NCBI GenBank assembly: GCA_947446925.1
Contig: CANFHU010000022.1
Location: 1 to 46,157 of the forward strand
Source of the DNA: Flavobacteriia bacterium
Lineage (GTDB): Bacteria > Bacteroidota > Bacteroidia > Flavobacteriales_D > Crocinitomicaceae
Reading direction: 5' to 3'
Length of the DNA stretch: 46,157 nt
The notes beneath the pieces are model-generated. The model had not been told where the DNA came from, searched no databases, and was given only the letters and a program-made list of their open reading frames with translations. The translations under genes and the position numbers were made by a program. Of this stretch, positions 26,415 to 45,288 are shown one piece after another (the first letter of the stretch is position 1; every line of letters begins with the position of its first letter).

Positions 26415-27227
26415 ATGACTAAGCCCTTATTATTTAGCCTACTAAGTATGCTATTTTCGACATTATCTTCCTACGCACAGCAAGGATTGGAAAAAATAAT
26501 GGTTGAAAAATATTATATCACCAATAGTTACGATACTACTGCCAATGAGTATGCTGGTAAACTGCCTCTAGGGTCCGTGACTTACCGAATCTATGCAGAT
26601 CTTTTACCTGGTTATAAATTTTTAGCGGCTTACGGAAGTCCTGAGCATACCTTGAAAATCGCAACAACTACTACCTTTTTTAATAATATAGATCACGGTG
26701 CTACCATTCCCAATGTAATTCCTTACCGAACACTTCGAAAAAACACCGTAATGCTTGACTCTTGGTTATCGGTTGGGGCAGCTGGAGAAGATTGTTATGG
26801 TATTTTAAAAACCGATGATGACACCTTAGAAACCATCCAACACGAAAAAAAGTTTTTGGCAAACACTAAAAAATCCATGGGTATACCATTAACACAAAAG
26901 GATGGGATTGTTCGTCACGACAACGTACCTCGACCATTTTTCTTTCACATCGATAGTGCAGCCAAAATTTTTGATGGAAATCATCCAGGTGGTTTATTTG
27001 AAGTTAAAAATGGTGCATGGGCATGTTTAGGAGGTTCTAAAGGAGCAGATTCATTAACCAATAATCGTGTGTTAATTGCACAAATAACGACAGATGGAGA
27101 ACTTTCGTTTGAATTAAACATACAAGTTGCAACGCCTATAAAAGGAGTAAGTCAACGCTTTGTAGCAAAAGATCCGATTGAGGATGAAATATGTATTCCA
27201 AGTTTAATATACACAAGTGGGAAATAA
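26415..27227 (+). CDS. Secreted EKYY-family protein A (domain alone)
   Basis: A 270-residue protein with signal peptide 1-21 (SSYAQ) followed only by the approximately 240-residue domain shared by five proteins here. It has GLEKIMVEKYYITNSYDTTA, LPLGSVTYRIYADLLPGYKF, TTTFFNNIDHGATI, NTVMLDSWLSVGAAGED, NRVLIAQITTDGELSFELNI and VSQRFVAKDP in the same order as its paralogs. It is the most diverged full copy and lacks Ig repeats and a T9SS sorting domain, so it may stay periplasmic or be carried by a partner. I know no named family for the domain. First gene of a seven-gene operon ending at 37163. Confidence 0.75.
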   Translation: MTKPLLFSLLSMLFSTLSSYAQQGLEKIMVEKYYITNSYDTTANEYAGKLPLGSVTYRIYADLLPGYKFLAAYGSPEHTLKIATTTTFFNNIDHGATIPNVIPYRTLRKNTVMLDSWLSVGAAGEDCYGILKTDDDTLETIQHEKKFLANTKKSMGIPLTQKDGIVRHDNVPRPFFFHIDSAAKIFDGNHPGGLFEVKNGAWACLGGSKGADSLTNNRVLIAQITTDGELSFELNIQVATPIKGVSQRFVAKDPIEDEICIPSLIYTSGK

Positions 27228-27279
27228 CCCTTCAATCGTTTTAAGGGAAAATTATAGAATAAGAATTAAAAAAAAACAC

Positions 27280-29442
27280 ATGAATAAATTAGTACTAGCG
27301 CTAGGATTTGTAACCTTTCAATTTTTGGGATTTGCTCAAAATGGTTTAGAAAAAATTATTGTAGAAAAATACTACATAGCAACAGCAGCAGATTCCCTTG
27401 GATCTGTAGGAACATTACCAGTAGGATCCACAACCTACCGTGTGTATGCAGACATGTTGCCAGGATACCGTTTTCAAGCCTTATATGGTAATGCAGATCA
27501 TGCACTAAAAATAAACACATCTTCTTCTTTTTTCAACAATGAAGATAGAGGAGCTACTACAGCAAACGCTATAGCATTTGCTAAATTAAAAACAAATACG
27601 GTTGCTCTTGACTCCTGGTTTTCAGTTGGTGCTTCTGCAACTGGACAATTTGGTGTGTTAAAATCAGAAGATAATGGTGCTGCAAATTTATTAACCTTAA
27701 GTACCTTATTAAAAAATAATGCAGCAGCAATGGGAATTCCACTTACTACACAAGATGGTAATCAAGCAGGGTCTCCTGAGGCGGTTACTTTTGTTGGTAT
27801 TGACCCAAGTGGAGGTATCTTTGATGCTACCAGTTTACAAGGCAATTCCTTCCAAACAAATGACGGTGCTATTTCTGCATTGAATGGAGCAACTGGTCCT
27901 ACAGTTGAAAACCGTGTTTTAATTGGACAGTTTACTACCAATGGTGTTTTCACTTTTGAATTAAACATTCAAATCGGAACACCAACGCCTGGTGTTTCTG
28001 AAAAATATGTCGCTTCCAATCCAGTGAATGGAGAGTTTTCTATCCCTTCCTTAATACTTTCTGGGAATAATCCTCCTGTTGTAGAAGTTACATCTCCAAG
28101 CAATAATGCAAAATTAAAAACAGGAGTTGCAACTACCATCACTGCAAATGCTACCGATTCAGATGGTACAATTACGAATGTAGAATTTTTTGAAGATGGA
28201 AAATCCATCGGAGTAGATAACACAGCACCTTATTCTATTGCGTATACACCAACAGATGGAAATCATACCATCACTGCTTTAGCAACTGATAATAAAAGTG
28301 CACAGACAACCTCATCAGGTGTAAACATTCTTGCTAGTAACAATATCCCTCCTGTCATCACTATTACTGCTCCAAAAATTGCACATTTGGAAACCGTTAC
28401 AATTAACGCTACTGCTTCGGATGCCGATGGTACTGTAAAAGAAGTTGCATTCTATATAGATAGTGTATTAGTTGGCACAGATGTTACCGCTCCTTTTAGT
28501 TATGCTTGGACATCCGTACTTGGAAAACACAGTGTATTTGCAATCGCAACAGATGATAAAGGCGAAAAAACAAAATCTAACAAAGAAATAATAGAAGTTG
28601 TAACGAATGTATTACCAGAAGTAGCAATTATATCTCCTACGAATAACGATAATACTATCACTACAGGTACAAACCTATTAATTCTTGCAAATGCTTCGGA
28701 TGCAGATGGTAAAGTGAACAAAGTAGAGTTTTTCGTTGATGGAAAATCCGTAGGTATTGATACAGAAACTCCTTATTCTGTTAATTATGTTGCAGTATCT
28801 GGCAAACATTATATTACTGCAGTTGCTACCGATGACCAATTAGCTACTACTACATCTACAACCATAAATATTGAAGTAAAAGACAATCAGTTACCATTAG
28901 TAAGTATCACTAATTACTTTGAAACAGTTTACAAACTAGATGTAGTAAAAATCACAGCAAATGCGTATGATTTAGATGGTACCATTTCAGAAGTAGAATT
29001 TTTCATAGATTCTGTCTCAGTTGGTATAGATCAAATTGCTCCGTATAGCACAGAATGGATTGCTACACCAGGTATTCACCACATCAAAGCTGTTGCAAAA
29101 GACAATAATGGCGCAAAAACAGCTTCTTCGATTAAAACAATCGACGTAAAAAGTTTTACTGCAGGTATAGAAGATCAAGAAATAGCTGGTGTTAAAGTGC
29201 AAGTATATCCAAACCCAACATCTTCCCACGTCACTTTTAATGTAACCACTTCAAATAATGAAGCATTTACATCCTTCCAAGTGATAGATAATATTGGAAG
29301 AATAGTTCTTGAAAAAGAGATGAAAAACACACAAAAAACAGTAATAGAAACCATCGATGTACAACAGGTAGAGAAAGGTGTATATCATTTCCATTTTACC
29401 ATTAATGGTAAACAAATGGTTGAAAAATTTATTGTTGAATAA
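27280..29442 (+). CDS. Secreted EKYY-family protein B with four Ig-like repeats and T9SS domain
   Basis: A 720-residue protein. Signal peptide 1-20 (LGFAQ), EKYY domain about 21-262 (GLEKIIVEKYYIATAADSLG, VGSTTYRVYADMLPGYRFQA), four Ig-like (Big_7-type) repeats about 263-630, each with DxDGTxxxVEFFxDxxxxGxD...PY and TAxATD motifs, and a T9SS type A sorting domain from about 640 (VYPNPTSSHVTFNV). I chose the ATG at 27280 because the upstream frame is leader. The Ig repeats probably hold the EKYY domain away from the surface. It lies 17 nt before the TonB-dependent receptor, so the two are co-expressed. Confidence 0.85.
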   Translation: MNKLVLALGFVTFQFLGFAQNGLEKIIVEKYYIATAADSLGSVGTLPVGSTTYRVYADMLPGYRFQALYGNADHALKINTSSSFFNNEDRGATTANAIAFAKLKTNTVALDSWFSVGASATGQFGVLKSEDNGAANLLTLSTLLKNNAAAMGIPLTTQDGNQAGSPEAVTFVGIDPSGGIFDATSLQGNSFQTNDGAISALNGATGPTVENRVLIGQFTTNGVFTFELNIQIGTPTPGVSEKYVASNPVNGEFSIPSLILSGNNPPVVEVTSPSNNAKLKTGVATTITANATDSDGTITNVEFFEDGKSIGVDNTAPYSIAYTPTDGNHTITALATDNKSAQTTSSGVNILASNNIPPVITITAPKIAHLETVTINATASDADGTVKEVAFYIDSVLVGTDVTAPFSYAWTSVLGKHSVFAIATDDKGEKTKSNKEIIEVVTNVLPEVAIISPTNNDNTITTGTNLLILANASDADGKVNKVEFFVDGKSVGIDTETPYSVNYVAVSGKHYITAVATDDQLATTTSTTINIEVKDNQLPLVSITNYFETVYKLDVVKITANAYDLDGTISEVEFFIDSVSVGIDQIAPYSTEWIATPGIHHIKAVAKDNNGAKTASSIKTIDVKSFTAGIEDQEIAGVKVQVYPNPTSSHVTFNVTTSNNEAFTSFQVIDNIGRIVLEKEMKNTQKTVIETIDVQQVEKGVYHFHFTINGKQMVEKFIVE

Positions 29443-29459
29443 TCCATTTTAACTACCCT

Positions 29460-32400
29460 ATGAAAAATCTAACACAAACGTTACTCTTATTCCTTTTATT
29501 GATATCCACTATCGGATTTTCACAAGGTACAGTTAGGGGTAAAATTACCGATGAAAAAGGAAACGCTTTGTACAACGCAAAAGTGTATTTTAAAAGCGAC
29601 CGTACAAAAATTGGACTATCTGATTTTGATGGTAATTTCACCATAGAAAGTAAATTACCAAGCGATGTAATGGTAATCAATATGGCGAATTTTCAACTCT
29701 TAGAAGATACCATCAAATTTGGCAAAACTACATTATACTTACAAGATTATTCCTTAGAACCAAAAGTTACAACTATTGGAACGGCTATTGTCAAAAAGAA
29801 AAAGCCAAAAGCGAATGATTTGTACATGGAGAACATCAAAAAAAATTCTGCTACAACCATCGACTATGTATCGGCAGAAACCATGAAAAAAACAGGAGAT
29901 CCAAACGTTACGGCAGCAGTTTCTCGTGTATCCGGTGTATCTACGAATGGTGGTCTAATTACAGTGCGTGGTATTGGAGATAGATATGTGAAAACTACCT
30001 TAAATGGTTCACGAATTCCAACGTTAGATCCTTTAACTAACAATATCAAATTAGATATATTTCCTGCAAGTTTGGTAGATAATATTATTATCACAAAAAC
30101 TGCTAGTCCAGATCTTCCTGGAGATTTTTCAGGAGCCTATTTGTCGGTAGAAACAAAAGATTACCCGGAAAAATTAGATGTAAACGTAGAAACACAATTT
30201 GGGTACAATGAACAAACAACCTTTAAGGATGTGGTTTCTTCCCAACGTAGTAAAACGGATTGGTTAGGTTTTGATAATAGTCTTAGAAGTAATAAAAATG
30301 AAACAATAAAAAATCCCAATTTATCCCCAACAACTTACCAAGAAATGAATGCTTTAGGACTTGGTAATTACTACAAATCACTTGGAGTAAGCGATTGGAA
30401 AGATGGTTCGCCAGAAGGAGATACGTATTTCAAAATGGGATTAATAGAATTAGGATTATTATCCAAAAGTTCTGTCAATGATCCAAATGCAATTAAAACA
30501 GCAACGAATGCTTACAATGCAGCGTATAAAACAATTGCATTTGATAAAATAAATCCAAACGGTACAGACTACAATAATGGATTTTCACACAATTGGAATT
30601 CCATCAACCGTAAAGCTCCAATGAATTTTAGCCAAAGTTTCAGTATTGGAAATCAGGTGAAATTATTTGGAAAACCACTTGGTTATATTGTAGGGTTTAG
30701 ATATGGTACCAATGTACGTTTTGATCCAAATGGCGTTTCACAACGTTTATCTGGTGACACTTCGCAACTTGGATTTGACGCTAAGGATAATGCAATTATT
30801 AGTAGAGAAACAAATGGCTGGAGTACCCTACTAAATCTTGCATATAAGTTTAATGACAAAAACAGTATCTCTGTAATGTTCATGCCAAATATCTCAGGAA
30901 CAAACGATGTTGCGAATTTCGTTGCAAAAAGAGACAACAGTCCAGATCAAGAAGCTAGAACGCTTGTAAATCAATTTTACGAACAGCGTCAACAATTTAT
31001 CTATCAGTTAAAAACAGAACATTATTTACCGAAATCTAAAACGAAAATCGACTTCAATACTTCCTATACAAAAGGGAACAGTATTGCGCCAGATTTTAAA
31101 GTGTTACAATATGGGTACATGGTAAATAATATTTTGGATAGTACTTTTAACTATATGTTCTCACCAACAGCGGGAGATGGTATTAGACGTTATTACCGTT
31201 ACTTAAACGAGAACATTATCGATTCTAGGGTTTCTGCAGAAATTCCATTTAAAAGTTCTAGTACAGATTTAGCACGAAAAATCAAATTTGGGGGTGCATT
31301 TCAACGTAATGATCGAACTTCGAATTTAGAAGAATACTACTTAAACAATGGAAATAAAATCGGAGGAGACAATTTATCCTCTAGCGATCTAGACGGTTTT
31401 TTAAATGCAGACAAATTCACGTTGACAAATCGCACGATAGATTATTATTATACATCTAGAGATTTTGCAAGAAACCACACATTTGGTTTTAGTACTGTTA
31501 AAGCAGGGTTTGTAGCGCTCGATTACACATTGAAATCTGGATTACGTTTAGCTGGAGGTTTACGTGTAGAACAATCGCAAATATTCTCGGATGTGAATGA
31601 ATATTATGCGAAAGGATATGCAAAGAATGATATACGTCGTGAAAACCTAGGAGGTTTCTCGGTTGTAAATGCAGCAGATTTAAAAGAAACGAATTTTTTA
31701 CCAAGTGCAAATATCGTTTACAAAATCAAACAAATTGAAAAAGCACAAGTTAACCTGCGTTTAAATTTTAGTCAAACTGTAGCACGTCCAAGTATTCGTG
31801 AATTAAACGATGCGGCAGTGTATGATAATGAGTTCCGAACTTTGATTTATGGAAATTCAGACTTAAAAAATGTACATATCAAAAACTACGATTTTAGAGG
31901 GGAATCGTACTTCAAAAATGGCGATAACATTTCTGTAAGTTTATTTTACAAAGACTTCCGTAACCACATTGAAATGGGATTTGGATCTGCTGGTATTACT
32001 TGGCAAAACATCGATCAATCGACTGTGAAAGGGTTTGAATTTGAAGGAAAGAAAGGACTTGGAAAACAATTTGAATTACGTGCAAACATTACATTAGTTC
32101 AATCTAATTCCGCATTCGTCCGCAAAGACATGACTATCGTAGATGGGGTTAAACATTTTACAGTAATTGATACCATCAATCGTCCTATGTTTGGTCAAGC
32201 ACCATATATAATTAATGCAATCTCTACCTTCAAATCGGATAGTTTAGGTATTACTGCATCTTTAAGTTATAATGTGCAAGGTCCAAGACTAGTAATTACA
32301 GGAGTAGTTAAAGGATTCCCAGATGTATATGAAATGCCACGAAATACGATTGATTTTAAAATCACCAAAAAATTGGGGAAACACTTTAATACAAGTTTGA

Positions 32401-32522
32401 TGGTGAGAGACATATTAAATGCAAAAGTACGAAGAGCGTACCGCATGAATAATGGCTATATCGACTATGACAACTTTAGATATGGAACCAATTTCATACT
32501 TTCTATTGCTTACAAATTATAA
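29460..32522 (+). CDS. TonB-dependent receptor of the EKYY operon
   Basis: A 1020-residue outer-membrane receptor. Signal peptide 1-22 (TIGFSQ), CarboxypepD_reg-like domain about 23-105 (GTVRGKITDEKGNALYNAKV), a Lys-rich linker (IVKKKKPKAND), plug domain with VSRVSGVSTNGGLITVRGIG and SPDLPGDFSGAYLSVETKDY, and a barrel ending FILSIAYKL. It is related to the receptor at 21470 in plug and barrel motifs. Substrate unknown. It sits between EKYY proteins B and C (17 and 18 nt gaps), in the position a SusD-like lipoprotein would hold in polysaccharide loci, but no SusD is present. This suggests EKYY proteins as its partners. Confidence 0.92.
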   Translation: MKNLTQTLLLFLLLISTIGFSQGTVRGKITDEKGNALYNAKVYFKSDRTKIGLSDFDGNFTIESKLPSDVMVINMANFQLLEDTIKFGKTTLYLQDYSLEPKVTTIGTAIVKKKKPKANDLYMENIKKNSATTIDYVSAETMKKTGDPNVTAAVSRVSGVSTNGGLITVRGIGDRYVKTTLNGSRIPTLDPLTNNIKLDIFPASLVDNIIITKTASPDLPGDFSGAYLSVETKDYPEKLDVNVETQFGYNEQTTFKDVVSSQRSKTDWLGFDNSLRSNKNETIKNPNLSPTTYQEMNALGLGNYYKSLGVSDWKDGSPEGDTYFKMGLIELGLLSKSSVNDPNAIKTATNAYNAAYKTIAFDKINPNGTDYNNGFSHNWNSINRKAPMNFSQSFSIGNQVKLFGKPLGYIVGFRYGTNVRFDPNGVSQRLSGDTSQLGFDAKDNAIISRETNGWSTLLNLAYKFNDKNSISVMFMPNISGTNDVANFVAKRDNSPDQEARTLVNQFYEQRQQFIYQLKTEHYLPKSKTKIDFNTSYTKGNSIAPDFKVLQYGYMVNNILDSTFNYMFSPTAGDGIRRYYRYLNENIIDSRVSAEIPFKSSSTDLARKIKFGGAFQRNDRTSNLEEYYLNNGNKIGGDNLSSSDLDGFLNADKFTLTNRTIDYYYTSRDFARNHTFGFSTVKAGFVALDYTLKSGLRLAGGLRVEQSQIFSDVNEYYAKGYAKNDIRRENLGGFSVVNAADLKETNFLPSANIVYKIKQIEKAQVNLRLNFSQTVARPSIRELNDAAVYDNEFRTLIYGNSDLKNVHIKNYDFRGESYFKNGDNISVSLFYKDFRNHIEMGFGSAGITWQNIDQSTVKGFEFEGKKGLGKQFELRANITLVQSNSAFVRKDMTIVDGVKHFTVIDTINRPMFGQAPYIINAISTFKSDSLGITASLSYNVQGPRLVITGVVKGFPDVYEMPRNTIDFKITKKLGKHFNTSLMVRDILNAKVRRAYRMNNGYIDYDNFRYGTNFILSIAYKL

Positions 32523-32540: not shown

Positions 32541-33881
32541 ATGAAATTAAAACAGTTAATTTTATTTATTGGATTTATATTTACTTCCATCTGGATGCAC
32601 GCACAGATAGAAAATGTGCTAGTAGAAAAATACTATATCTCCGATGATTTTGACGGATTGGATACAAATGGTGGACATTTACTTCCCGGTTCTGTTACTT
32701 ATCGTATCTATATTGATTTAGCCCAAGGAAGTAAATTATTACGTATTTATGGGGATAAAAATCATCCGTTTATTCTAAAAAGTACCGAAACAATTTTTAA
32801 CCACAAAAATGATGGACAAAGTTTTGGGAAAGATTTCTCTAAATCTCGTTTTAACAACAACACAGTAGCGCTTGACAGCTGGTTAACCATCGGTCAGATA
32901 AGTAAATCCATCAATAATCAAACCTATTATGGAATTCCAAAAGACCAAGATACAGACGGTTCATTTGTTGGGGGAATAAACAATGATGGAGGAAGTAGTT
33001 CCATACCATTTGGATTGTTAAATAATACAGATCCAAACGTTGGTTCTCCCCTATTCCTTAAAGATGGTATCCAATTAACAAATAACACTCTAACTAATTG
33101 GGGGGATTATGGAATCATTAGCAATGCGAACGATTCAACTGTATTTGGTTCACTTGTTGCAGGTAAGGCATTTGAAAGTTCTAACTTTTATTTAAGAAAT
33201 GCTGGAACTACTGGACCGGATAGTGTAAAAAATCAAATACTGATTGCACAGATCACCACTGCTGGAGAACTTTCTTTTGCAATTAATGTAGAAGTATTAG
33301 AAATGATCAATGGCGTACCGACAAAAGTACAATATGTATCCAATGACTCTATTTTAATTCAAAATAGCGTTTGGAATGAAAAGTTCAGTAAGTTTTTGAA
33401 ATATCCATTCGCTTGTGGATGTATAGATAAAAATTACATTGAGTTCAATCCAAAAGCGGTATGTAGTGAGGTTACTGCTTGTAAAACAAAAATTGTTATT
33501 GGATGTACCGATCCTAAAGCATGTAATTATGACCCAACTGCGAATGTGATGGTACACAACCTTTGTTGTTACCCTGGATCTTGCAACAATAGAGATATTG
33601 CGGAAGTTTGTCCTTCCTTATTAGAAGAATCATTAACCTTTGAGATTCATCCAAACCCTAGCCACAATTATCTTTATATCAATGCAAAAACTGGTAAAAC
33701 AGAATTAATGCACTATACTATCTACGATGTTTTTGGGAATAATGTACTTACAAAAACGCTAGGAAATAAATCCGTTCTAATTGATGAAGAAGTAAATATC
33801 GAAAATTTACCAAACGGAATTTATCATTTACGCTTAAGCGTTGGAAATTCAGTTGAAAGTAAAACATTCATAAAAAATTAA
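32541..33881 (+). CDS. Secreted EKYY-family protein C with Cys-rich motif and T9SS domain
   Basis: A 446-residue protein. Signal peptide 1-21 (WMHAQ), EKYY domain about 23-270 (IENVLVEKYYISDDFDGLDT, LLPGSVTYRIYIDLAQGSKL, NNTVALDSWLTIGQI, NQILIAQITTAGELSFAINV), a Cys-rich segment about 290-355 containing GCTDPKACNYDPTANVMVHN and CCYPGSC, then a T9SS type A sorting domain from about 368 (IHPNPSHNYLYI). The CTDPxAxNYDPxA motif is a short extracellular repeat seen in marine and aquatic Bacteroidota, probably held by disulfides. It carries a longer insertion (about 115-165) than its paralogs. Confidence 0.82.
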   Translation: MKLKQLILFIGFIFTSIWMHAQIENVLVEKYYISDDFDGLDTNGGHLLPGSVTYRIYIDLAQGSKLLRIYGDKNHPFILKSTETIFNHKNDGQSFGKDFSKSRFNNNTVALDSWLTIGQISKSINNQTYYGIPKDQDTDGSFVGGINNDGGSSSIPFGLLNNTDPNVGSPLFLKDGIQLTNNTLTNWGDYGIISNANDSTVFGSLVAGKAFESSNFYLRNAGTTGPDSVKNQILIAQITTAGELSFAINVEVLEMINGVPTKVQYVSNDSILIQNSVWNEKFSKFLKYPFACGCIDKNYIEFNPKAVCSEVTACKTKIVIGCTDPKACNYDPTANVMVHNLCCYPGSCNNRDIAEVCPSLLEESLTFEIHPNPSHNYLYINAKTGKTELMHYTIYDVFGNNVLTKTLGNKSVLIDEEVNIENLPNGIYHLRLSVGNSVESKTFIKN

Positions 33882-33888
33882 GAATCTG

Positions 33889-34608
33889 ATGAAAAGAACA
33901 ATCTATATCATAGCAACAAGTTTCCTATTCTTTGCAGGAATGATTAGTTGCACGAAAGAAGATGTCGCAACAAATACTCCAGAATATGGAAGCATGACAG
34001 ACATTCAAGGTAACACCTATAAAACAGTGAAAATAGGGAACCAATGGTGGATGGCTGAAAATTTAAAGGTGACCGTTTTTAATGATAAAACACCTATCAA
34101 TGCCATTTCAGAAAATGCAGCAGATTCCATTTGGGAAAATACTACAAAAGCAGCTTATTGTATGTACGACACCACATTGGGAGCGCTTTATAATTGGAAA
34201 GTAATTGATAATATAAAAATGATCGCACCGAAAGGATGGCATATACCTAGTGATGACGAATGGAAAATGCTAGAAAAAACGTTGGGTCTTTCAACTTCTG
34301 AAATCGAAAAAACCGCTTGGAGAGGAACAGTAGAAGCAGATAAATTACTTGCAAAATCAACTTCAATTCCAGAAAGTAATTCCTATGCATTTGGCACCAA
34401 TGAAAGTGGATTTACTGGATTATTTGCAGGATGTCGTTTGTTTAGCGGTAGCATCAACAAAGAAAAAAACACTGCATTTTGGTGGACGTCCTCCCCTTCC
34501 ACAGGAAACGAGGCTTGGTATCGTTATATCGACGCTAGACAAAAGAAAATATTTCGTCAACATACATTTACAAACTATGGATTCAGTATCCGTTGTATCA
34601 AAGATTAA
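33889..34608 (+). CDS. FISUMP-domain lipoprotein
   Basis: A 239-residue lipoprotein. The signal peptide ends FFAGMISC, with the lipidated Cys at 21. The mature part is a FISUMP (Fibrobacter succinogenes major paralogous) domain: GNTYKTVKIGNQWWMAENLK, YNWKVIDNIKMIAPKGWHIP, SDDEWKMLEKTLG, ESGFTGLFAGCRLFSG, AFWWTSSP and YGFSIRCIKD. Such domains are surface lipoproteins of unknown function. It starts 7 nt after EKYY protein C and lies in the same operon. Confidence 0.9.
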   Translation: MKRTIYIIATSFLFFAGMISCTKEDVATNTPEYGSMTDIQGNTYKTVKIGNQWWMAENLKVTVFNDKTPINAISENAADSIWENTTKAAYCMYDTTLGALYNWKVIDNIKMIAPKGWHIPSDDEWKMLEKTLGLSTSEIEKTAWRGTVEADKLLAKSTSIPESNSYAFGTNESGFTGLFAGCRLFSGSINKEKNTAFWWTSSPSTGNEAWYRYIDARQKKIFRQHTFTNYGFSIRCIKD

Positions 34609-34625
34609 TTAAAATCCAGCTAGTT

Positions 34626-35312
34626 ATGAAATTAATATATAGTATCCTTATTTGTTTATCCAGTTTTGTACTACATGCGCAAGATTCGATTCAAGCAGCT
34701 ACTTCCAAATGGAAGAAACACCAAATAGGTATCACCTATTCTCCGGATTACAATTTTCGCTATTTACAAGCAGAATCTAATGCTACTTGGCTTAAGAACA
34801 TTGCTGATTCGATGGAAACACCAAAATTTGGATTCTCGACTGGTATAAATTATTCCATTAAAATTGGTGAAAAATCTACGCTTAGTACCGGTGTACTTTT
34901 TACAGATAATGGAGAAAAAACAAAAAGTAATGTAAATCTTCAAACCGTAAATTATACGAATCATTATTATTTTGCAAGCGTACCATTACGTTTAGACTAT
35001 ACCTTACATGCTAAAAAAGTAGCAATCTATACTACTCTTGGTGTAGCTGGAAATTTCTTTATTAACCATAAAACCGTCATGTATGAAGATGGTAAAAAAG
35101 AAGCGATTCAGTTTAATAACCATACGGATTTAGCAGCATGGAACATTGGAGGAATCGCAGGTTTAGGTATGAATGCTAAATTAGCAGACAATTGGTTTTT
35201 TAAATTAGAGGTACTTTACAAACAATCCATCACACCCGTAAACAATGATCCTGTAAAAAAATGGTTATATGCTGTTGGTCCAAATTTCGGATTGTTTTAC
35301 AGCTTCAACTAA
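34626..35312 (+). CDS. Outer-membrane beta-barrel protein (PorT-like/OMP_b-brl family)
   Basis: A 228-residue protein with signal peptide 1-19 (SSFVLHAQ) and alternating strand patterns typical of small Bacteroidota outer-membrane barrels: HQIGITYSPDYNFRYLQAES, TPKFGFSTGINYSIKIGEKS, LSTGVLFTDNGEK, YYFASVPLRLDYTLHAKKVA, WNIGGIAGLGMNAKL and a C-terminal FGLFYSFN ending on an aromatic-Asn. PVPLRLDY-like motifs are common in the PorT family. I chose the ATG at 34626; the in-frame start at 34593 overlaps the lipoprotein stop and spoils the signal peptide. Confidence 0.82.
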   Translation: MKLIYSILICLSSFVLHAQDSIQAATSKWKKHQIGITYSPDYNFRYLQAESNATWLKNIADSMETPKFGFSTGINYSIKIGEKSTLSTGVLFTDNGEKTKSNVNLQTVNYTNHYYFASVPLRLDYTLHAKKVAIYTTLGVAGNFFINHKTVMYEDGKKEAIQFNNHTDLAAWNIGGIAGLGMNAKLADNWFFKLEVLYKQSITPVNNDPVKKWLYAVGPNFGLFYSFN

Positions 35313-37163: not shown

Positions 37164-37334
37164 TCATCCTACGCTATTAAAAATTAGGTGAAATAAACTA
37201 ACTATTAAATTAAAATGAACAAAAACATCGTCAATACATAAATTGATATTCTTTAGATAATAAATCCGTCACACCCTTGTTGTATTTACTTCGCAAATTT
37301 GAATTATACTAAAAAATTAATTCACGTTTCGAAT

Positions 37335-39737
37335 ATGAAAAAAACTACTAAAAAAATATTTCTTGGACTTGGACTGGCGCTTGTAGGTACCGTTGGACAT
37401 GCGCAAGATGGATTAGAAAAAATTATTGTAGAGAAATATTACATTTCTACAGCCGCTGACTCCATCGGATCACTAGGAACTTTACCTGTTGGATCCGTAA
37501 CTTACCGTGTGTATGCAGATATGTTACCTGGTTATAAATTCCAAGCTTTATATGGTAATTCGGATCATCCTTTAAAAATAAATACCAGTACCACTTTTTT
37601 TAATAACGAAGATAGAGGTGCTACTACAGCAAATGCTATTGCAAGCGCGCAACTAAAAAACAACACCGTTGCTTTGGATTCTTGGTTGAGTGTAGGAGCT
37701 TCCGCAGCAGGTCAATTTGGAGTGTTAAAATCCGAAGATAATGGTACAGCAAATTTACTGACATTAAATTCTTTACTAAAAAACAACATTTCCAAATTAG
37801 GTATTCCGGTAACAACGCAAGATGGAAATCAAGCGGGTTCTCCAGAAGCAGTTACTTTGGTTGGATTAACCACGGAATTGGATGTTTTTGACGCTACAAG
37901 CCAATTTGGAAATTCATTTAGCACAACCAATGGCGCTATCTCTGCATTAAATGGAGCAGCTGGACCAACTGCCGAAAACCGTGTTTTATTAGGTCAATTT
38001 ACCACAGATGGTGTTTTTAGTTTTGAATTTAACATTCAAATAGGTACCCCTACTCCTGGTGTTTCACAAAAATATGTAGTTTCTAGTCCAATCAACGGAG
38101 AAAAAACAATTCCATCTTTAAAATTTGAAACCAATGAACTACCAAGTGTAAGCATTACATCTCCTGCCAACAACGCTACATTCCTAACTGGTGCAACCGC
38201 AACTATCACTGCTTCTGCCGGGGATGTAGATGGAACCATTGCACAGGTAGAATTTTTTGTAGACGGAAATTCAGTAGGTATCGATACGAATGCTCCCTAT
38301 GAAAACACCTATACGACAACAACTGGTGCACATGTATTAACAGCGGTAGCAAAAGACAATAAAGGAGATAGTACGCTTTCGGAAGCAGTAAATATAACAG
38401 TTAGTGATAACATTGCTCCTACAGTTAGCGTTGAAGTAATTCCTACTGCAATGACTGGTGAAATGATTGCCATTAAAGCAACAGCAAACGATAGCGACGG
38501 AAATGTTGCTTCCGTTGAATTCTTCGTGGATAATATTTCTATCGGAAAAGATAATTCGACACCATTTTCAATCAATTGGAATGCTACCCTTGGAAGTCAT
38601 AAAATTAAAGCAGTAGCAACCGATAATAAGGGATTGACAGGAACTTCTAAAGACTCCACGATTACTGTGAAAAATAACGAAGCACCAACGGTAACCATTA
38701 GTAATCCAGCAAATGCAATTACTGGAGACGAGGTAACCATTAATGCAACAGCAGTAGATACAGACGGATCTATTAGCAGTGTAGAATTTTTCGTAGATAA
38801 TATCTCTGTAGGTTCGGATGTTACTAGTCCATATAGTATACTTTACAAAACAACCGAAGGGAAACATAAAATAAAAGCAGTTGCAACGGATAATTTAGGA
38901 TTAAAAGGGACATCGAAAGAAGATTCTATTTTAGTTGTTAATAATCAAATTCCAATCGTTACGATTACTACTCCTAAAAATGCAATTTCGGGAGATGTAG
39001 TAACATTTACTTCCACTGCCGAAGATAAAGATGGCTCTGTTACGCAAGTAGAATTTTTTGTAGATAATATTTCTATAGGATTTGATGCATCCGCACCCTA
39101 TACGATCCAATGGACAACAACTACTGGGGAACATCAAGTAAAAGCAATCGCAACTGATAATCGAGGTTTCAAAGGTTCATCCGCAGACTCAACTTTGAAA
39201 GTGATAGCTAACATAGCACCAACCGTGGATTTAATCCTTGATTCAACAGCAAAGGTAGATGCTAATGTACTAATAACAGCTATTGCAAGTGATTCAGATG
39301 GAACGGTGAAAAAAGTAGCATTCTATGTAGACAATGTATTGATTGCTACAGATTCAATTGCACCTTTCGCTACGACTTGGAAAGCAATTACCGGTAATCA
39401 TACTGTAAAAGTAATTGCGAATGATAACCGAGGTTTAACATCCACTAAAACAAAAGATATTATGGTAAAAGAAAATAATGCAGCTATTGAAACCGTTGCA
39501 ACAAACATTCAAACAATCGTGTATCCTAATCCTGCAACTAAAGAACTTTCGATAATTGCAAGTGAAAATGCACAGGTTTCATTAACAGACATTTCTGGTA
39601 AAACTATTATTGAACCTACCGAAATATATGCAAACACTACGCATACTATGTACATTCAAAACATATCCTCTGGTGTTTATTTAGTGAAAATTTCTACTCC
39701 TACTTCCAACAAAACGGAGCGTGTGATCATTCAATAA
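37335..39737 (+). CDS. Secreted EKYY-family protein D with five Ig-like repeats and T9SS domain
   Basis: An 800-residue protein. Signal peptide 1-24 (TVGHAQ), EKYY domain about 25-267 (GLEKIIVEKYYISTAADSIG, VGSVTYRVYADMLPGYKFQA, NTVALDSWLSVGASAAGQFG), five Ig-like (Big_7-type) repeats about 268-715 and a T9SS type A sorting domain from about 725 (IVYPNPATKELSII). The EKYY domain is very close to those of B and E. I chose the ATG at 37335 because the upstream extension breaks the signal peptide. It is the first gene after the operon and probably has its own promoter in the 171-nt gap; a strong hairpin terminator follows. Confidence 0.87.
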   Translation: MKKTTKKIFLGLGLALVGTVGHAQDGLEKIIVEKYYISTAADSIGSLGTLPVGSVTYRVYADMLPGYKFQALYGNSDHPLKINTSTTFFNNEDRGATTANAIASAQLKNNTVALDSWLSVGASAAGQFGVLKSEDNGTANLLTLNSLLKNNISKLGIPVTTQDGNQAGSPEAVTLVGLTTELDVFDATSQFGNSFSTTNGAISALNGAAGPTAENRVLLGQFTTDGVFSFEFNIQIGTPTPGVSQKYVVSSPINGEKTIPSLKFETNELPSVSITSPANNATFLTGATATITASAGDVDGTIAQVEFFVDGNSVGIDTNAPYENTYTTTTGAHVLTAVAKDNKGDSTLSEAVNITVSDNIAPTVSVEVIPTAMTGEMIAIKATANDSDGNVASVEFFVDNISIGKDNSTPFSINWNATLGSHKIKAVATDNKGLTGTSKDSTITVKNNEAPTVTISNPANAITGDEVTINATAVDTDGSISSVEFFVDNISVGSDVTSPYSILYKTTEGKHKIKAVATDNLGLKGTSKEDSILVVNNQIPIVTITTPKNAISGDVVTFTSTAEDKDGSVTQVEFFVDNISIGFDASAPYTIQWTTTTGEHQVKAIATDNRGFKGSSADSTLKVIANIAPTVDLILDSTAKVDANVLITAIASDSDGTVKKVAFYVDNVLIATDSIAPFATTWKAITGNHTVKVIANDNRGLTSTKTKDIMVKENNAAIETVATNIQTIVYPNPATKELSIIASENAQVSLTDISGKTIIEPTEIYANTTHTMYIQNISSGVYLVKISTPTSNKTERVIIQ

Positions 39738-39746
39738 AAAACAATT

Positions 39747-39792
39747 AAAAACTAAAAAAGCCACAACGAATGTTGTGGCTTTTTTAGTTTTT
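39747..39792. terminator. Strong bidirectional-looking terminator hairpin
   Basis: A perfect 21-bp stem (39747-39767 with 39772-39792), GAAT loop, with A tracts on the left and T tracts on the right. The rest of the 39738-40086 gap is an AT-rich leader with the inverted repeat listed next. Confidence 0.92.
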
Positions 39793-39981
39793 AGACCTTT
39801 ATTAACATCTAACTATTCATAATTGCTACACACAACATTAACAAACAAAGCACTATAAATCAACACATTAAAACATAAGATGAATTTTGTATTAAAAACA
39901 TGTTAATCTAATATTGGAGAATCCAGCAAAACATTTATCTACCGCGCTTTTTTTTAACATTCAGCCTTAAAATACTTATTT

Positions 39982-40007
39982 TATTGATAACAGTTTTTTT
40001 ATCAATA
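39982..40007. promoter_or_regulatory. 8-bp inverted repeat upstream of the second repeat-protein gene
   Basis: TATTGATA (39982-39989), 10 nt, TATCAATA (40000-40007). It could be an operator or a weak hairpin. It lies 79 nt before the ATG at 40087. The promoter itself was not clearly seen; GAAATTTG near 40024-40031 is a possible -7. Confidence 0.35.
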
Positions 40008-40086
40008 CGCAGGCAAAAGCAACCGAAATTTGACATGAAAATTGAATGCATGTTGTGTTCAGTAAAATTTTTAAAAAAATTAAAAA

Positions 40087-41796
40087 ATGAAAAAGAAATT
40101 ACCAATTTCAAAAATGATCGCATCTGCGGCATTAGCTGTAGCAGCAATCACGCCATCTTTTGGCCAAGCTAATTTAGGTGCTGCTTGTGGATGTCCAACA
40201 GTAGCTTCTAGAACAACGGTATTGCTTTCTTCCTTACCAGGATTTACAGCAATCAATGGAACGTATGGTGGTGAATTAACTGCTGGTGCTGTTCTAACAT
40301 GTGATAAAACATACATTATTGACCAAAAAATTTACATTCCATCTGGACAAACTTTGAACATTGCTCCTGGAACTGTATTAAAAGGAAGAGTAGCACCAGA
40401 CGGAGCAACTGCAGGTGTTCCAGATCCAGCAAAAGCTTCTGCTTTAATCATCGAAAGAGGTGGTAAAATTTTAGCAGATGGAACTGCTGACTGTCAAATC
40501 GTTTTCACTGCTGAAGCAGATGCAGTTGACGGAACTTATGCAATCGCTAACAACGGTAAATGGGGTGGATTAGTTATCTTAGGAAAAGCTTCAAACAACT
40601 TGACATTAGCGGCAAATGGACCATTCGTACCTGGAGGTGCTGGTAAATTAGCAGTTGCAAATGGTTTAGGTACCATGGAAGGTTTTGCTACATCTAACAC
40701 ACAAGATCAATATGGTGCTAACTTAACAGCTGGTGAATCTTTTGATGATAACGATAACTCAGGTATCTTAAGATATGTTTCTGTACGTCACGCAGGTGCT
40801 ATCCTTGCAGTTGGTGCAGAGTTAAATGCAATCTCTTTAGCATCTGTTGGTCGTGGTACAACTATCGAACACGTAGAAACAATTTCTTCTGCAGATGATA
40901 ACATCGAACTTTTTGGTGGTACTGTTAACTTAAAATATATCTCTACATTATTCGGTAATGATGATATGTTTGACTACGATTTAGGTTGGTCAGGTAAAGC
41001 GCAATTCTTATTCGGTATGAAAACAGATGTTAATGCTTCTGTAGATTCTGATAACGGTTTTGAAGCGGATTCAGATGATAACAAATCCAACAACAACCCA
41101 AAATCAATTCCAGTTGTTTACAATGCTACAATCATTGGTAACTCTAAATCAGCAACAACTTCTGATAACTCTTCTATCGCAGCTATCAATGCAAAAGAAT
41201 TAACAGGAGGTGAATTCTATAACTCTGTATTCGCAAACTTCAAAAACGGTTTCAACATGGTTAAATCTGTTGGTACTGTAAGAACAGGAACTTCTGAAGC
41301 TTACCATAACTGGTCAACTGCAAACGGAAATGGTTCTGGTATTTTGAAAGTAAAATGTAATACATTCGTTGGTGTTACTAACCCATTAACTGTTGGTTCT
41401 TCTGCTGCTAACGTAGTTACTGCAGATAACGATCAATTTGCTGCTGACGGTAACGTAATCGTTGTTGGTAACACATTACCAGGATTTGATTATTCTTTTA
41501 CAGTAAACAACACAACAAATGCTTTCTCTGGAAAAAATGATGTAACTCCTAATCCATCTTTATCTGTTTCTGGATGTCCAACTGCTCCAGTAGATGGTTT
41601 TTACAGAGCTGCTAACTACCGTGGTGCTTTCTCTTCTAATGCTAACGAAAACTGGTTATCTAACTGGTCTTATTCTCAAGTGTTAGGTGCTACTAAAGGT
41701 CTTGCTGCATGTCCTACAGACATCAACGCAGATGGTGTTACTAACGTAAATGACTTCTTACAATTGTCCGCTTCATTCGGTACAAGCTGTAACTAA
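40087..41796 (+). CDS. Secreted repeat (beta-helix-like) protein ending in a dockerin-like motif
   Basis: A 569-residue secreted protein, paralog of 24507-26138. Signal peptide about 1-27 (TPSFGQ), then a body with LNIAPGTVLKG, NGKWGGLVILGKASNN, DDNDNSGILRYVSVRHAGAI, ISSADDNIELFGGTVNLKYI and DDMFDYDLGWSGKAQFLFGM in the same order. The 28 C-terminal residues, CPTDINADGVTNVNDFLQLS then ASFGTSCN, have the DxNxDGxxNxxD calcium-binding pattern of a dockerin half-repeat, and there is no T9SS sorting domain. Codon use is biased to GCT, GTT, GGT and AAC, which suggests very high expression. A hairpin lies in the 57-nt gap before the next gene. Confidence 0.85.
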   Translation: MKKKLPISKMIASAALAVAAITPSFGQANLGAACGCPTVASRTTVLLSSLPGFTAINGTYGGELTAGAVLTCDKTYIIDQKIYIPSGQTLNIAPGTVLKGRVAPDGATAGVPDPAKASALIIERGGKILADGTADCQIVFTAEADAVDGTYAIANNGKWGGLVILGKASNNLTLAANGPFVPGGAGKLAVANGLGTMEGFATSNTQDQYGANLTAGESFDDNDNSGILRYVSVRHAGAILAVGAELNAISLASVGRGTTIEHVETISSADDNIELFGGTVNLKYISTLFGNDDMFDYDLGWSGKAQFLFGMKTDVNASVDSDNGFEADSDDNKSNNNPKSIPVVYNATIIGNSKSATTSDNSSIAAINAKELTGGEFYNSVFANFKNGFNMVKSVGTVRTGTSEAYHNWSTANGNGSGILKVKCNTFVGVTNPLTVGSSAANVVTADNDQFAADGNVIVVGNTLPGFDYSFTVNNTTNAFSGKNDVTPNPSLSVSGCPTAPVDGFYRAANYRGAFSSNANENWLSNWSYSQVLGATKGLAACPTDINADGVTNVNDFLQLSASFGTSCN

Positions 41797-41809
41797 AAAA
41801 ATTAATGCC

Positions 41810-41830
41810 GAGTCCTAAAATTTAGGACTC
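41810..41830 (+). terminator. Intergenic hairpin, possible partial terminator or mRNA-processing site
   Basis: GAGTCCTAAA and TTTAGGACTC (10-bp arms) separated by one A; not followed by a strong T run. It could reduce read-through into the next gene or protect the upstream mRNA. Confidence 0.5.
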
Positions 41831-41853
41831 TGCTCATTTTAAAAAATAAAAAA

Positions 41854-44800
41854 ATGAAAACAAAAAGACAAAAAAGAAGAATTGCCAAAAAAATCTTATT
41901 GAGCTTAAGCTTAGCTTTATTAGGTGGTGGATTTGCTCAAGCGCAAAATGGTTTAGAGGGAATCATCGTTGAAAAATACTACATCGCTAATGCTGCGGAT
42001 GCTGCTGCTTCAGTAGGTACACTTCCTGTAGGATCTGTAACTTACCGTGTATACGCTGACATGTTACCAGGATTTAAATTCCAAGCATTATATGGTAACG
42101 TTGCTCACCCATTAAAAATTTCTACTTCTACTTCTTTCTTCAACAATGAGGATCGTGGAGCTACAACTGCAAATGCTATCGCAAGTGCACAATTAAAAAA
42201 CAATACCGTTGCACTTGACTCTTGGTTCTCTGTAGGTGCTTCTGCAACAGGTCAATTAGGTGTTTTGAAAACAGAAGATAATGGTGCTGCCAATTTATTG
42301 ACTTTGTCTACTATCCTTAACAACACTGCTGCTGCAATGGGAACAGGATTGAAAACACAAGATGGTAACATCGCTGGTTCTCCAGAGGCTGTTACTTTCG
42401 TAGGTATCGATCCAACTGGTGGTTTATTTGATGCAACAAGTCAATCTGGTAACTCTTTAATCGTTACGGATGGTGCTATCTCTGCATTAAATGGTGCTAC
42501 TGGACCAACTGCTGAAAACAGAGTATTATTAGGTCAGTTTACAACAGACGGTGTTTTCCGTTTTGAATTTAACATCCAAATTGGTACACCAACTGCTGGG
42601 GTTTCTCAAAAATATGTAGCTTCTAACGCTGCTGCTGGTGAAACAGTTTTAGAGTCATTAACATTAGCTCCAAACAATCCTCCAACAGTAAGTGTAACTT
42701 CTCCAGCAAACAATGCTGCAATTATTACAGGTACAAATACTACATTAACAGCTTCTGCTGCGGACGTAGACGGTACAGTTACACAAGTTCAATTCTTCGT
42801 AGATGGTACATCTGTTGGTACAGATAATACGGCTCCATATACGGCTAGTTATACTGCAGTTGCTGGTAACCATAACATCACAGCTGTTGCTACAGATAAC
42901 AAAGGAGATAACACTACTTCTTCTGTTGTTGCTATCACGGTTGCGGATAACCAAGCTCCAACTGCTACAATCGCTGGATCTAACGGTATCGTTGGGGATG
43001 TAATCACTTTAACTTCTACTGCAGCTGACGTGGATGGTTCTGTTGCACAAGTAGAGTTCTTTGTAGATAACGTTTCTGTAGGTGTAGATAATGCTGCTCC
43101 TTATGCTACTACTTGGACTTCTACTTTAGGTGTTCACGCTATCAAAGCAGTTGCTACAGATAACTTAGGTTTAACTGGAACTTCTACAATACCAAACATT
43201 ACAATCGCTGCTAACAATCCTCCAACAGCAACTATCGCTTCGACTTCTCCTTCTATTGCAGGTTCAATCATTGCTCCTACAGTTATCACAATCAACGCTA
43301 ACGCAACGGATTCTGATGGTACTGTAACCGGTGTTGAATTCTTAATCAATGGTACAGTAGTTGGAACAGATAACACTGCGCCATATTCTTACGCTTGGAC
43401 AAGTACTCCTGGAGATAAATCTTTAACCGTTAGAGCTACAGATAACAAAGGTGCAGTAACTACTTCTGCTGCTCAAACGTTCTCTATCGCAGATCCAAAT
43501 GCACTTCCTTACGAAATCCGTACGGTAGATCAAAAATGTAACATACCAACTTTCAACATCGCTGTTGCTGCTGCTGCTACAAACACAGTAGATAACGTGA
43601 TTGGTTATGATATGGTGGTTGCTTATGATAAAACGAAAGTTACTCCAACTGGAAATATTACTGTAAACAGTGACTTGATTAACCCAACTTACGTTCAAAC
43701 TTCTAATGCGATTAATGCTGCTGCAGGAACAATGAACATTTCTGTTTACTTCAACGCAAATGCACCTGCTAACGCAAAATTCGCTGGTATTGGTAAAATC
43801 GTTACTGTAGAATTTAACAAAACTGTAAACTTTGCATCTGTAGATACTGCAGTAATTTCTTCTTCTTTCTTACAAGAGTCTTACATCGGTGGTGTTTCTG
43901 CTAAATCTGTTTCTGCTGGTAAAGCAATTACGCACAAAGATTTCAGTTTCCCAATGGCATTAAGATTCTGGGGAGATAACACTCCAATCAAATTTGACGC
44001 TGGACATCCAAATGATTACTTAGCTACTTCTGTGTTTGGTACAGATGTAACTACTGGTATCAAAAATGGTAACAATGTGGAAGTAAAAGCGGATATCGAT
44101 GGAAATATGACGTATGACTTAAACAATGGTTTAGGTGTTAGTATCGTAAGAGATATCGCTAATACAACGGATGTATTTGACGTAGTAAACGCAGGTGACG
44201 TTAACATCATTAACTCTATCTTGTTAAATGATGTAGCTGTAACTCCTTCCGTTTATCAAATTATCGCTGCTGACGTTAACATCGATGGTGTTATTTCTGC
44301 AGGAGATATCTCTCAAATCAGACAAAGAGGTGCTTTAAGCATTGGTGAATTCAGACAAGCTTGGAACTATTCTAACGCTGGTGTATCTAATGGACAACCT
44401 TCTAAAGACTGGACATTCGTTGATTCATTAAGAATTAAAAACAATCCTGCTTACAAAATTTCTACTACGTATCCTGCAAACGATATCGCTGGTGGTTTCT
44501 CTAAATCAAGAGTTCCTGTAACTCCTTTCTTCTTACCTGCTACAGTAACTGATTTTGCTATCTGTCCAGATATCAAACCAGAAACGTACAAAGGGGTAAT
44601 GTTAGGTGATGTAGATGGTAGTTATGCTAACTTCACGCACAATGGTTTAGTGAAAAACTTAGAAAACAAAATCGTTTTTGATTTTGCTAACGTAACTGTA
44701 AACGGTTCAACCATTGAAGTACCTGTTTCTATCGAAGGTGAGAAAGCAGTGAAAGGTCTTGACTTCGCAATCAAATTCAACGAAGATGTATTAACTTACA

Positions 44801-45288
44801 AAAACGTTGTTGTGAAATCTAACGAAATCGAAAGCTTCAGCCATTTCAATACAAATGACAGAACTTTACGTTTTACTTCGAATGATTTCTCTTCATTCGA
44901 CAAGAATTCTAATTTAGTTTCTATTCAATTTGACGCTGCAAACGGTAAAATCAACATGCAAGATTTAACTTCTGTAAAAGGTATGTTAGATGGTAAAGCT
45001 GTTAATGTTGAATTAAGAGGTTTAGCTGCTGGTGTTGCTGCATTAGATGCTTCTAACTCTGTGAAAGTGTACCCAAATCCTGCTGCTGGTTCTTTAAACA
45101 TCGTTGCTGGTGTTAACTCTAAAGTAATCATTACAGATATTTCTGGAAAAGAAGTAATCTTTACTGGTGACTTAAATGCGAACATGCAACAAGCAATCAA
45201 TGTTTCAAACTTTGCTAACGGAATGTACTTAGTGAAAGTATATAACGAAAACTTTAACAAAGTAGAAAGAGTTGTGATTAACAACTAA
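41854..45288 (+). CDS. Secreted EKYY-family protein E with Ig, cohesin-like, dockerin-like and T9SS domains
   Basis: An 1144-residue surface protein. Signal peptide about 1-31 (GGGFAQAQ), EKYY domain about 32-272, three Ig-like (Big_7-type) repeats about 274-547, a cohesin-like beta domain about 550-690 (YDMVVAYDKTKV), a dockerin-like segment about 740-840 (DVNIINSILLNDVAVTPS, ADVNIDGVISAGDISQIRQR), a second cohesin-like domain about 935-1055 (LDFAIKFNEDVLTYKNVVVK), and a T9SS type A sorting domain from about 1068 (KVYPNPAAGSLNIV). Codon use is strongly optimised, as in the preceding gene, with which it may be co-transcribed. It is probably an abundant cell-surface structural or binding protein; ligand unknown. 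Confidence 0.85.
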   Translation: MKTKRQKRRIAKKILLSLSLALLGGGFAQAQNGLEGIIVEKYYIANAADAAASVGTLPVGSVTYRVYADMLPGFKFQALYGNVAHPLKISTSTSFFNNEDRGATTANAIASAQLKNNTVALDSWFSVGASATGQLGVLKTEDNGAANLLTLSTILNNTAAAMGTGLKTQDGNIAGSPEAVTFVGIDPTGGLFDATSQSGNSLIVTDGAISALNGATGPTAENRVLLGQFTTDGVFRFEFNIQIGTPTAGVSQKYVASNAAAGETVLESLTLAPNNPPTVSVTSPANNAAIITGTNTTLTASAADVDGTVTQVQFFVDGTSVGTDNTAPYTASYTAVAGNHNITAVATDNKGDNTTSSVVAITVADNQAPTATIAGSNGIVGDVITLTSTAADVDGSVAQVEFFVDNVSVGVDNAAPYATTWTSTLGVHAIKAVATDNLGLTGTSTIPNITIAANNPPTATIASTSPSIAGSIIAPTVITINANATDSDGTVTGVEFLINGTVVGTDNTAPYSYAWTSTPGDKSLTVRATDNKGAVTTSAAQTFSIADPNALPYEIRTVDQKCNIPTFNIAVAAAATNTVDNVIGYDMVVAYDKTKVTPTGNITVNSDLINPTYVQTSNAINAAAGTMNISVYFNANAPANAKFAGIGKIVTVEFNKTVNFASVDTAVISSSFLQESYIGGVSAKSVSAGKAITHKDFSFPMALRFWGDNTPIKFDAGHPNDYLATSVFGTDVTTGIKNGNNVEVKADIDGNMTYDLNNGLGVSIVRDIANTTDVFDVVNAGDVNIINSILLNDVAVTPSVYQIIAADVNIDGVISAGDISQIRQRGALSIGEFRQAWNYSNAGVSNGQPSKDWTFVDSLRIKNNPAYKISTTYPANDIAGGFSKSRVPVTPFFLPATVTDFAICPDIKPETYKGVMLGDVDGSYANFTHNGLVKNLENKIVFDFANVTVNGSTIEVPVSIEGEKAVKGLDFAIKFNEDVLTYKNVVVKSNEIESFSHFNTNDRTLRFTSNDFSSFDKNSNLVSIQFDAANGKINMQDLTSVKGMLDGKAVNVELRGLAAGVAALDASNSVKVYPNPAAGSLNIVAGVNSKVIITDISGKEVIFTGDLNANMQQAINVSNFANGMYLVKVYNENFNKVERVVINN

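Follow-up and report, generated by a model that had tools for sequence, protein, structure and literature searches.

A head-domain operon around a SusD-less TonB receptor in a Crocinitomicaceae bacterium: a candidate phosphate-starvation system

Described receptor systems and the locus compared

The outer-membrane lipoprotein ElpS (CC0170) of Caulobacter crescentus is made under phosphate starvation and is encoded beside the receptor CC0171. Its over-expression raises phosphatase activity, of which none was observed in ElpS itself; the family is said to reach Bacteroides, and the ElpS/CC0171 pair co-occurs in genomes (PMC2996285, as excerpted). In Flavobacterium johnsoniae, PUSIII and PUSIV, induced by inorganic phosphate (Pi) status, hold receptors and the lipoproteins FI and FII, likened to polygalacturonases. 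PUSIV adjoins phoBR, and Pi depletion raises the levels of its receptor and lipoprotein; FIII is an orphan and, like FI and FII, resembles the Caulobacter protein (PMC8115612, as excerpted). Here we analyze 46,157 nucleotides from a Crocinitomicaceae bacterium (assembly GCA_947446925.1, contig CANFHU010000022.1; hereafter the window), which hold a unit resembling PUSIV and, downstream, an operon coding for five copies of an unnamed domain (the head, in proteins H1 to H5) grouped around a second TonB receptor, TBDR_B. We favor, at little better than even probability, the reading that this head operon (H1-H5, TBDR_B, a FISUMP-domain lipoprotein, and the beta-helix protein BH_B) is a phosphate-starvation operon of PhoB type, building an outer-membrane uptake system for a phosphorus-bearing ligand that dispenses with SusD.

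The order of PUSIII/PUSIV, i.e., phoBR, receptor, and pectin-lyase-fold lipoprotein, matches that of window 19515-26138, and ElpS/CC0171 is likewise a pair of TonB receptor and extracellular protein; in both cases the likeness is one of gene order and fold. A preliminary description of this DNA had proposed a ligand-capture or adhesion system that was not yet described. The domain indeed has no Pfam or NCBIfam name, but the system is not wholly undescribed, because pairs of a TonB receptor and a pectin-lyase-fold protein are known in Caulobacter (PMC2996285) and Flavobacterium (PMC8115612), at least as the excerpted texts present them. Phosphorus acquisition is favored over adhesion because of the promoter repeats and the PhoR/PhoB-like neighbors.

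Several features set the head operon apart. Relative to PUSIII/PUSIV, it adds five heads (four with tails of the type IX secretion system, T9SS), the FISUMP lipoprotein, and a helix protein with a dockerin-like tail. ElpS is a lipoprotein released with the type II secretion system, and the excerpted text of its report mentions no head-domain proteins beside it (PMC2996285). The helix protein is a lipoprotein in ElpS and PUSIV, whereas here BH_B has a plain signal peptide, as judged by eye, and its paralog BH_A has a T9SS tail. The SusCD/PusCD systems also provide a TonB receptor with dedicated surface partners, but the head operon lacks a SusD-type partner and its own partners are T9SS-tailed. 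Finally, in Bacteroides BtuG lipoproteins cap BtuB (PMC10404256, as excerpted), another receptor with a non-SusD surface binding partner; BtuG is a lipoprotein lid, whereas the heads are T9SS cargo. This precedent would fit the uptake of a metal, vitamin, or siderophore by a BtuBG-like receptor with surface lids, in which case the promoter repeats would belong to another regulator of the OmpR family. Because the receptor/helix pair goes with PhoR-PhoB and shows Pi induction in F. johnsoniae, we regard that explanation as very improbable.

The head domain and its receptor

The five open reading frames (ORFs) of the preliminary description are found where it placed them, on the forward strand, and a search of the organism's own genome returns exactly these five head copies (E from 2.4e-184 to 1.2e-31). 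The heads align over ~240 residues, the other four being 34-46% identical to that of H1. According to Pfam scans, H1 (26415-27227) is a head alone, with an apparent signal peptide, and H2 (27217-29442, start probably 27280) joins a head to four Big_7 domains and a T9SS tail. TBDR_B (29460-32522; Plug domain, TIGR01782 under cut-off) follows, and then H3 (32541-33881), in which the head precedes a Cys-rich CTDP region containing GCTDPKACNYDP and a T9SS tail. Next comes the FISUMP-domain putative lipoprotein (33889-34608; Fib_succ_major), with a lipobox-like GMISC seen by eye; FISUMP homologues have CKKEE-like residues after the lipobox, which we take to direct surface export. Further downstream are H4 (37299-39737, start probably 37335), a head with five Big_7 domains and a T9SS tail, BH_B (40087-41796), and H5 (41854-45288), with three Big_7 domains, a cohesin/dockerin-like region, and a T9SS tail. 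For H2 and H4 the ORF lists give the earlier starts, 27217 and 37299, and signal peptides read by eye favor 27280 and 37335.

Por_Secre_tail is above its cut-off in H2, H3, H4, and H5 and missing in H1, in agreement with the claim that four of the five carry a T9SS domain. The different tails (none, four immunoglobulin-like [Ig] repeats, a Cys-rich region, five Ig repeats) are also as first reported, except that the "cohesin/dockerin" part of H5 corresponds to a sub-threshold Dockerin_1 (18.5 vs 22.9 bits); Cohesin exceeds its cut-off (25.3 vs 24.1 bits) only in the next gene, at 45475-46157 on the same strand, which the window end cuts. The receptor was said to lack a SusD partner, and Pfam indeed hits no SusD-type domain in any of the 12 genes that run on the plus strand between 24444 and the end of the window. 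There are two TonB receptors in the window, one at 29460 within the head group and the other upstream at 21470.

The head is a large domain family without a Pfam or NCBIfam name. When 129 heads were scanned singly, Pfam gave no convincing family (one lone hit, E 0.05) and neither did NCBIfam (eight lone hits, E 0.02-0.05); the window's five copies match nothing in either. Against PDB sequences, one profile search returned a single hit at chance level (E 0.83) and another returned none. At the level of titles and abstract beginnings, no description of the domain was found among the literature matches listed. The AlphaFold2 model of the H4 head, built from the 129 aligned heads, is confident (pLDDT 97.1, pTM 0.94) and resembles known folds only weakly. 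We read it as an Ig/cohesin-like beta-sandwich, mainly of strands, with a long insert. Foldseek finds nothing in the PDB at E ≤ 0.001 (best E 0.052). In VIA comparisons the best score is Z 5.8, to the Als3 adhesin over 122 aligned residues; many cohesins and MSCRAMM modules score Z 4-5, and SdrC and ClfA are among the weak matches. Cohesins and MSCRAMM/Als modules thus share a beta-sandwich with the head at the level of a weak structural match (Z 4-6), but the head has no sequence match to them and contains a large insert; such likeness (Z < 8) may mean a common arrangement only. The invariant columns of the head alignment, in the numbering of 37407-38132 (the H4 head), are E9, R34, D91, D111, D139, G140, Q197, G202, and N209.

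A scan of genome contigs identified 146 relatives, the best 80 of which gave 71 loci, hence 72 with the window; in these, neighbors were counted among labeled ORFs and ORFs of at least 200 aa. The titles of the relatives are nearly all those of Bacteroidota metagenome-assembled genomes (MAGs), several with lake names, and the few from other taxa (Kuenenia, Actinomyces) are probably mislabeled bins. A TBDR_B of at least 400 aa is present in 58 of the 72 loci. The 14 others are mostly at contig or stretch ends. Two (L027, L030) hold receptor fragments, whereas the head of L070, a locus of 16 kb, seems to be a genuine orphan, as perhaps is that of L069. A head lies immediately upstream of TBDR_B in 55 of 56 readable loci (the lone exception is apparently L055, whose receptor is broken into two frames) and immediately downstream in 50 of 50. 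FISUMP follows H3 in all 46 readable loci, BH_B follows downstream in 28 of 33, and after BH_B there is again a head in 26 of 26. The loci without a downstream BH_B are L009, L012, L023, L050 (where it lies upstream), and L055. The median intergenic gap in these operons is 21 bp.

The same association is found in a survey of the order, in which the two best receptor candidates of each genome were scored. Among 399 sampled genomes, 68 have long heads (best E ≤ 1e-50), and TBDR_B (E ≤ 1e-100) is present in 67 of these, against 10 of the 331 others (Fisher tested). The contig of the only long-head genome without it (G501) ends inside H2. Nine of the ten receptor-only genomes have weaker receptors (345-523 bits); the tenth, G688, scores 1236 bits, but this genome is 71% complete and its receptor hit begins 347 bases from a contig end. 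Four more distant relatives (G038, G043, G058, G494) keep the receptor, a head right after it, further heads, and BH_B; they have no head ahead of the receptor, and FISUMP is not detected. Phylum-wide, 3 of 395 genomes have the head. Four of 12 congeners show no head, some of these genomes being incomplete, so the locus is accessory. In conclusion, there is a strong link between the long head form and one receptor type.

A short form of the head, which lacks the insert, is found in another family of the same order (f9), with 17-43 matches per genome in ten chosen genomes, although the 23 matches of G043 include some long heads. One ORF can hold as many as five short heads; such ORFs reach ~4400 aa and contain CTDP repeats. 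TBDR_B is near none of them in 16 fetched loci; hence, the proximity to a TonB receptor that was first proposed holds for the long form, and the head domain as a whole is not receptor-specific. D111 and the D139-G140 pair fall within the stretch absent from the short form, as judged from gapped matches. Five short-head proteins scanned have no Pfam family for the head, the short-head profile is found in 3 of 395 genomes drawn phylum-wide, and a plasmid search with a short head as query gave no match. The expansion is seen, for instance, at G530:C29, G555:C172, and G561:C26 (L175-L186, L190-L193). In a locus common to two genomes (L145 4852-16474 and L150 2787-14000), short heads occur in double form along with long CTDP repeats, and next to them we recognize, by eye, glucose-6-phosphate-isomerase-like and sugar-transporter-like genes and a protein with repeated QGWDP modules.

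All 49 H3 heads in the head tree fall into a single clade (support 0.995), and position labels change only 28 times across the tree, whereas shuffled labels give a mean of 120 changes. Positions H1 to H5 are therefore for the most part separate subunits of old origin; the tree is unrooted and silent on whether the short heads are one clade. Por_Secre_tail is present in 84 of 85 H2/H3 proteins scanned, from 106 complete ones. It is present in 2 of 46 proteins of the H1 class (heads further upstream than H2), one more having a CHU_C hit; by eye, proteins of this class have signal peptides. Among 26 proteins of the H4/H5 class, many truncated by the end of the stretch, 23 have Big_7 and 14 a T9SS tail. 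Big_7 is rare before the receptor (7/46 in the H1 class, 10/85 in H2/H3), and the median lengths of H1 and H2 are 281.5 and 368 aa. Separately, 11 of 37 short H1 proteins (e.g., L006, L009, L011, L013) have a Lys/Arg-rich C-terminal tail, with at least five such residues in the last 15.

One might see in these proteins a system of adhesion or matrix assembly, with heads as adhesive tips on Ig stalks and a receptor that is incidental or serves assembly. The weak fold matches to Als3, SdrC, ClfA, and cohesins, the stalks of the H4/H5 class, and the repeated short heads of the giant ORFs are what one would expect of it. Yet long heads are seldom found without the receptor, and the H1 and H2 that precede it are short and mostly devoid of a Big_7 stalk. 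For the long-head operon we consider adhesion distinctly improbable.

Promoter repeats, Pho-type regulators, and the beta-helix family

The PUSIV-like unit starts on the reverse strand with a PhoR/PnpS-like sensor kinase (19515-20600; HisKA/HATPase), whose best NCBIfam matches, PnpS and PhoR, are both under the equivalog cut-off, and a PhoB-like response regulator (20590-21297; best NCBIfam match PhoB, 209 bits vs a cut-off of 296). Divergent from these, on the forward strand, are TBDR_A (21470-24325; Plug, barrel, and CarboxypepD_reg) and BH_A (24444-26138, start probably 24507; Por_Secre_tail), a beta-helix-family protein that resembles BH_B. A triple TTAAC repeat of 11-bp period lies between the PhoB-like gene and TBDR_A (21395-21421, forward strand). 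Read by eye, a terminator-like stem-loop with a T run (26190-26224, forward strand) parts BH_A from the head operon, ahead of which repeat scoring places PHO-box-like repeats within 26237-26336 (26237-26252 and 26310-26336, forward strand). To the left of the PhoR-PhoB region there is an IS200-type transposase (Y1_Tnp, 16252-16788).

The PHO box is defined as 11-nt direct repeats (PMC4415409, as excerpted). In Riemerella, TTTAACA is the most conserved part of the motif obtained by DNA affinity purification sequencing (DAP-seq) for PhoP, which is raised in phosphate starvation (PMC9603813, as excerpted). Exact TTAACN6TTAAC occurs in the window only in the triple repeat at 21395-21421, and the exact triple pattern has two sites genome-wide, the PhoB/TBDR_A promoter and C5:107297, between a peptidase-like gene and a small unrelated one. 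With one mismatch there are 13 sites, against 26 for a reversed control pattern; since it is no richer than this control, a plain pattern scan is useless alone. We also scored sequences with a hand-set weight model for TTAAY repeated three times at an 11-bp period, with p obtained by shuffling. Scores reach p < 0.05 ahead of 37 of 54 head operons, whereas among 146 operon-lead controls taken from these loci 27 do so (Fisher 6e-11). This 11-bp test was shaped after inspection of the PhoB-receptor intergenic sequences and of two-repeat output, and the guard against such shaping is a scan of spacings combined with thinning: a spacing of 11 bp yields significance in 40 of 54 head operons, whereas spacings of 7-10 and 12-15 bp yield it in 1-5 each; in a set thinned to 36 loci, the corresponding figures are 24 for 11 bp and 1-4 for the other spacings. 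All eight PhoB-receptor promoters are significant at 11 bp, a result that is not independent, because the weights were shaped on them. Two-repeat scoring is weaker: of 54 head operons, 20 match at 9 or all 10 of the 10 bases, as do 18 of 190 controls. Near-identical repeats precede the operon in the congeners L001, L003, and L025 (p 0.02-0.04). Beyond the window's genus, TBDR_B lies beside a PhoB-like regulator in L048 alone, where a regulator with PhoB as best NCBIfam match (under cut-off) is directly upstream of the head operon. The 11-bp TTAAY repeats that precede most head operons look like candidate PHO-box sites, and regulation of the head operon by a PhoB-type protein is in our view likely.

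The beta-helix family provides the other tie to the PUSIV-like unit. BH_A and BH_B are 35% identical over 305 aa, TBDR_A and BH_A are adjacent, and TBDR_B and BH_B belong to one gene group. The family is found in 101 of 148 sampled Bacteroidota genomes. It lies beside a TBDR_A-type receptor in 19 of 20 stretches chosen from phylum-wide matches and in 9 of 16 further stretches from genomes of the class, i.e., 28 of 36 overall (L224-L259). PhoR-PhoB is divergent from the receptor-helix pair in 8 of the 16 class stretches, and the window has this same order. BH_B has no Pfam hit. Its model (pLDDT 85.4) appears, by its matches, to be a right-handed beta-helix: VIA matches it, at Z as high as 21.5, to phage proteins, tailspikes, alginate epimerase/lyase, and polygalacturonases, and pectate lyases are also alike; Foldseek against the PDB finds nothing at E ≤ 0.001 (best E 1.1e-3).

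BH_B lacks a T9SS tail and ends in a dockerin-like Ca-loop motif (PTDINxDG...DFLxLLGxF, with variation), which is present in all 31 BH_B rows of alignment A3, although Dockerin_1 is not among its Pfam hits. A single such motif ends proteins without a T9SS tail, both in BH_B (window 41700-41796) and its orthologues and at L148 6619-7587, and could serve to anchor or sort them.

These data bear on an explanation by glycan capture, i.e., a carbohydrate system without SusD in which BH_B would cut polysaccharides, as a lyase or a hydrolase, and the heads would be glycan-binding proteins of the cell surface. The resemblance of the model to polygalacturonases, pectate lyases, alginate epimerases, and tailspikes suggests as much, as do the invariant acidic residues that BH_B shows across several successive stretches of its alignment; FI-FIII, too, may bind or cut plant glycans (PMC8115612, as excerpted). 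Against this, no gene flanking the core operon is widely kept across the 72 loci, hence there is no set of carbohydrate-active enzymes, and within the head operon itself no glycoside hydrolase or lyase is hit in Pfam. Moreover, the 11-bp repeats resemble those of PhoB-receptor promoters, and proteins related to the helix family are Pi-induced (PMC8115612, as excerpted). Glycan capture is thus unlikely in our judgment.

Two genes within the operon are found in some lineages only, many loci being cut short: a small outer-membrane beta-barrel protein (34593-35312, forward strand; OMP_b-brl_2) in 20 of 72 loci, and a TMTC-like membrane glycosyltransferase with tetratricopeptide repeats (35328-37163, forward strand; PMT_2, TPR, weak TMTC_DUF1736) in 9.

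Proposed function and what it would mean

Under the favored phosphate-starvation reading, low phosphate would lead a PhoB-type regulator to bind the 11-bp repeats and turn the head operon on. T9SS would then export H2-H5, which would serve at the cell surface as capture proteins differing in reach, and BH_B, together with the heads, would bind or process a phosphorylated polymer; the dockerin-like tail of BH_B may attach it to cohesin-like domains. TBDR_B would take the ligand in with TonB energy, and H1, without a T9SS tail, would stay in the periplasm as a receiving copy of the same fold. The parts of this scheme differ in strength: a phosphorus role for the operon is somewhat more probable than its opposite, whereas a ligand role for the heads is tentative, with less than even chances. 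That a single fold forms a PhoB-controlled relay, in which T9SS-shown heads catch a fragment of a phosphorus-bearing polymer, TBDR_B imports it, and periplasmic H1 receives it, the SusD lid being replaced, is a rather unlikely elaboration.

A number of observations weigh against the phosphate-starvation reading. TBDR_B is just 26.5% identical to TBDR_A, so that the ligands of the two receptors may differ. No phosphatase, phosphodiesterase, or Pst gene is seen within the head operon, and no genes flanking it are widely kept. In 7 of the 16 class stretches the helix protein is found without a receptor of TBDR_A type, by a test that may miss divergent receptors. Kinase and regulator alike score under the PhoB/PhoR equivalog cut-offs. 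The window's own repeat ahead of the head operon is marginal (p = 0.06), and the operon-lead controls reach p < 0.05 in 18% of cases, not 5%. Direct repeats of about 11 bp are also used by other regulators of the OmpR family. The Riemerella PhoP motif is itself said to resemble that of ArcA (PMC9603813, as excerpted). PstS, tried as an independent control of the Pho regulon, gives no support, because the best PBP_like_2 hit lies among ExbD-/TonB-like genes (by eye) and not in a pst operon; no strong triple repeat is found in the 16 kb around it. Finally, the short heads of the giant f9 proteins fit adhesion equally well.

If correct, the reading gives a large unnamed domain family its likely context and shows a tie, in Bacteroidota, between phosphorus acquisition and surface proteins of T9SS. 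To judge by MAG names, many carriers of the locus seem to come from lakes. The proposed rule for the PHO box, TTAAY at 11 bp, can be checked in other genomes, and the helix family, widespread even though BH_B has no Pfam hit, merits study. Should heads on each side of the membrane bind the same ligand, this would be a new, SusD-free way to feed a TonB receptor.

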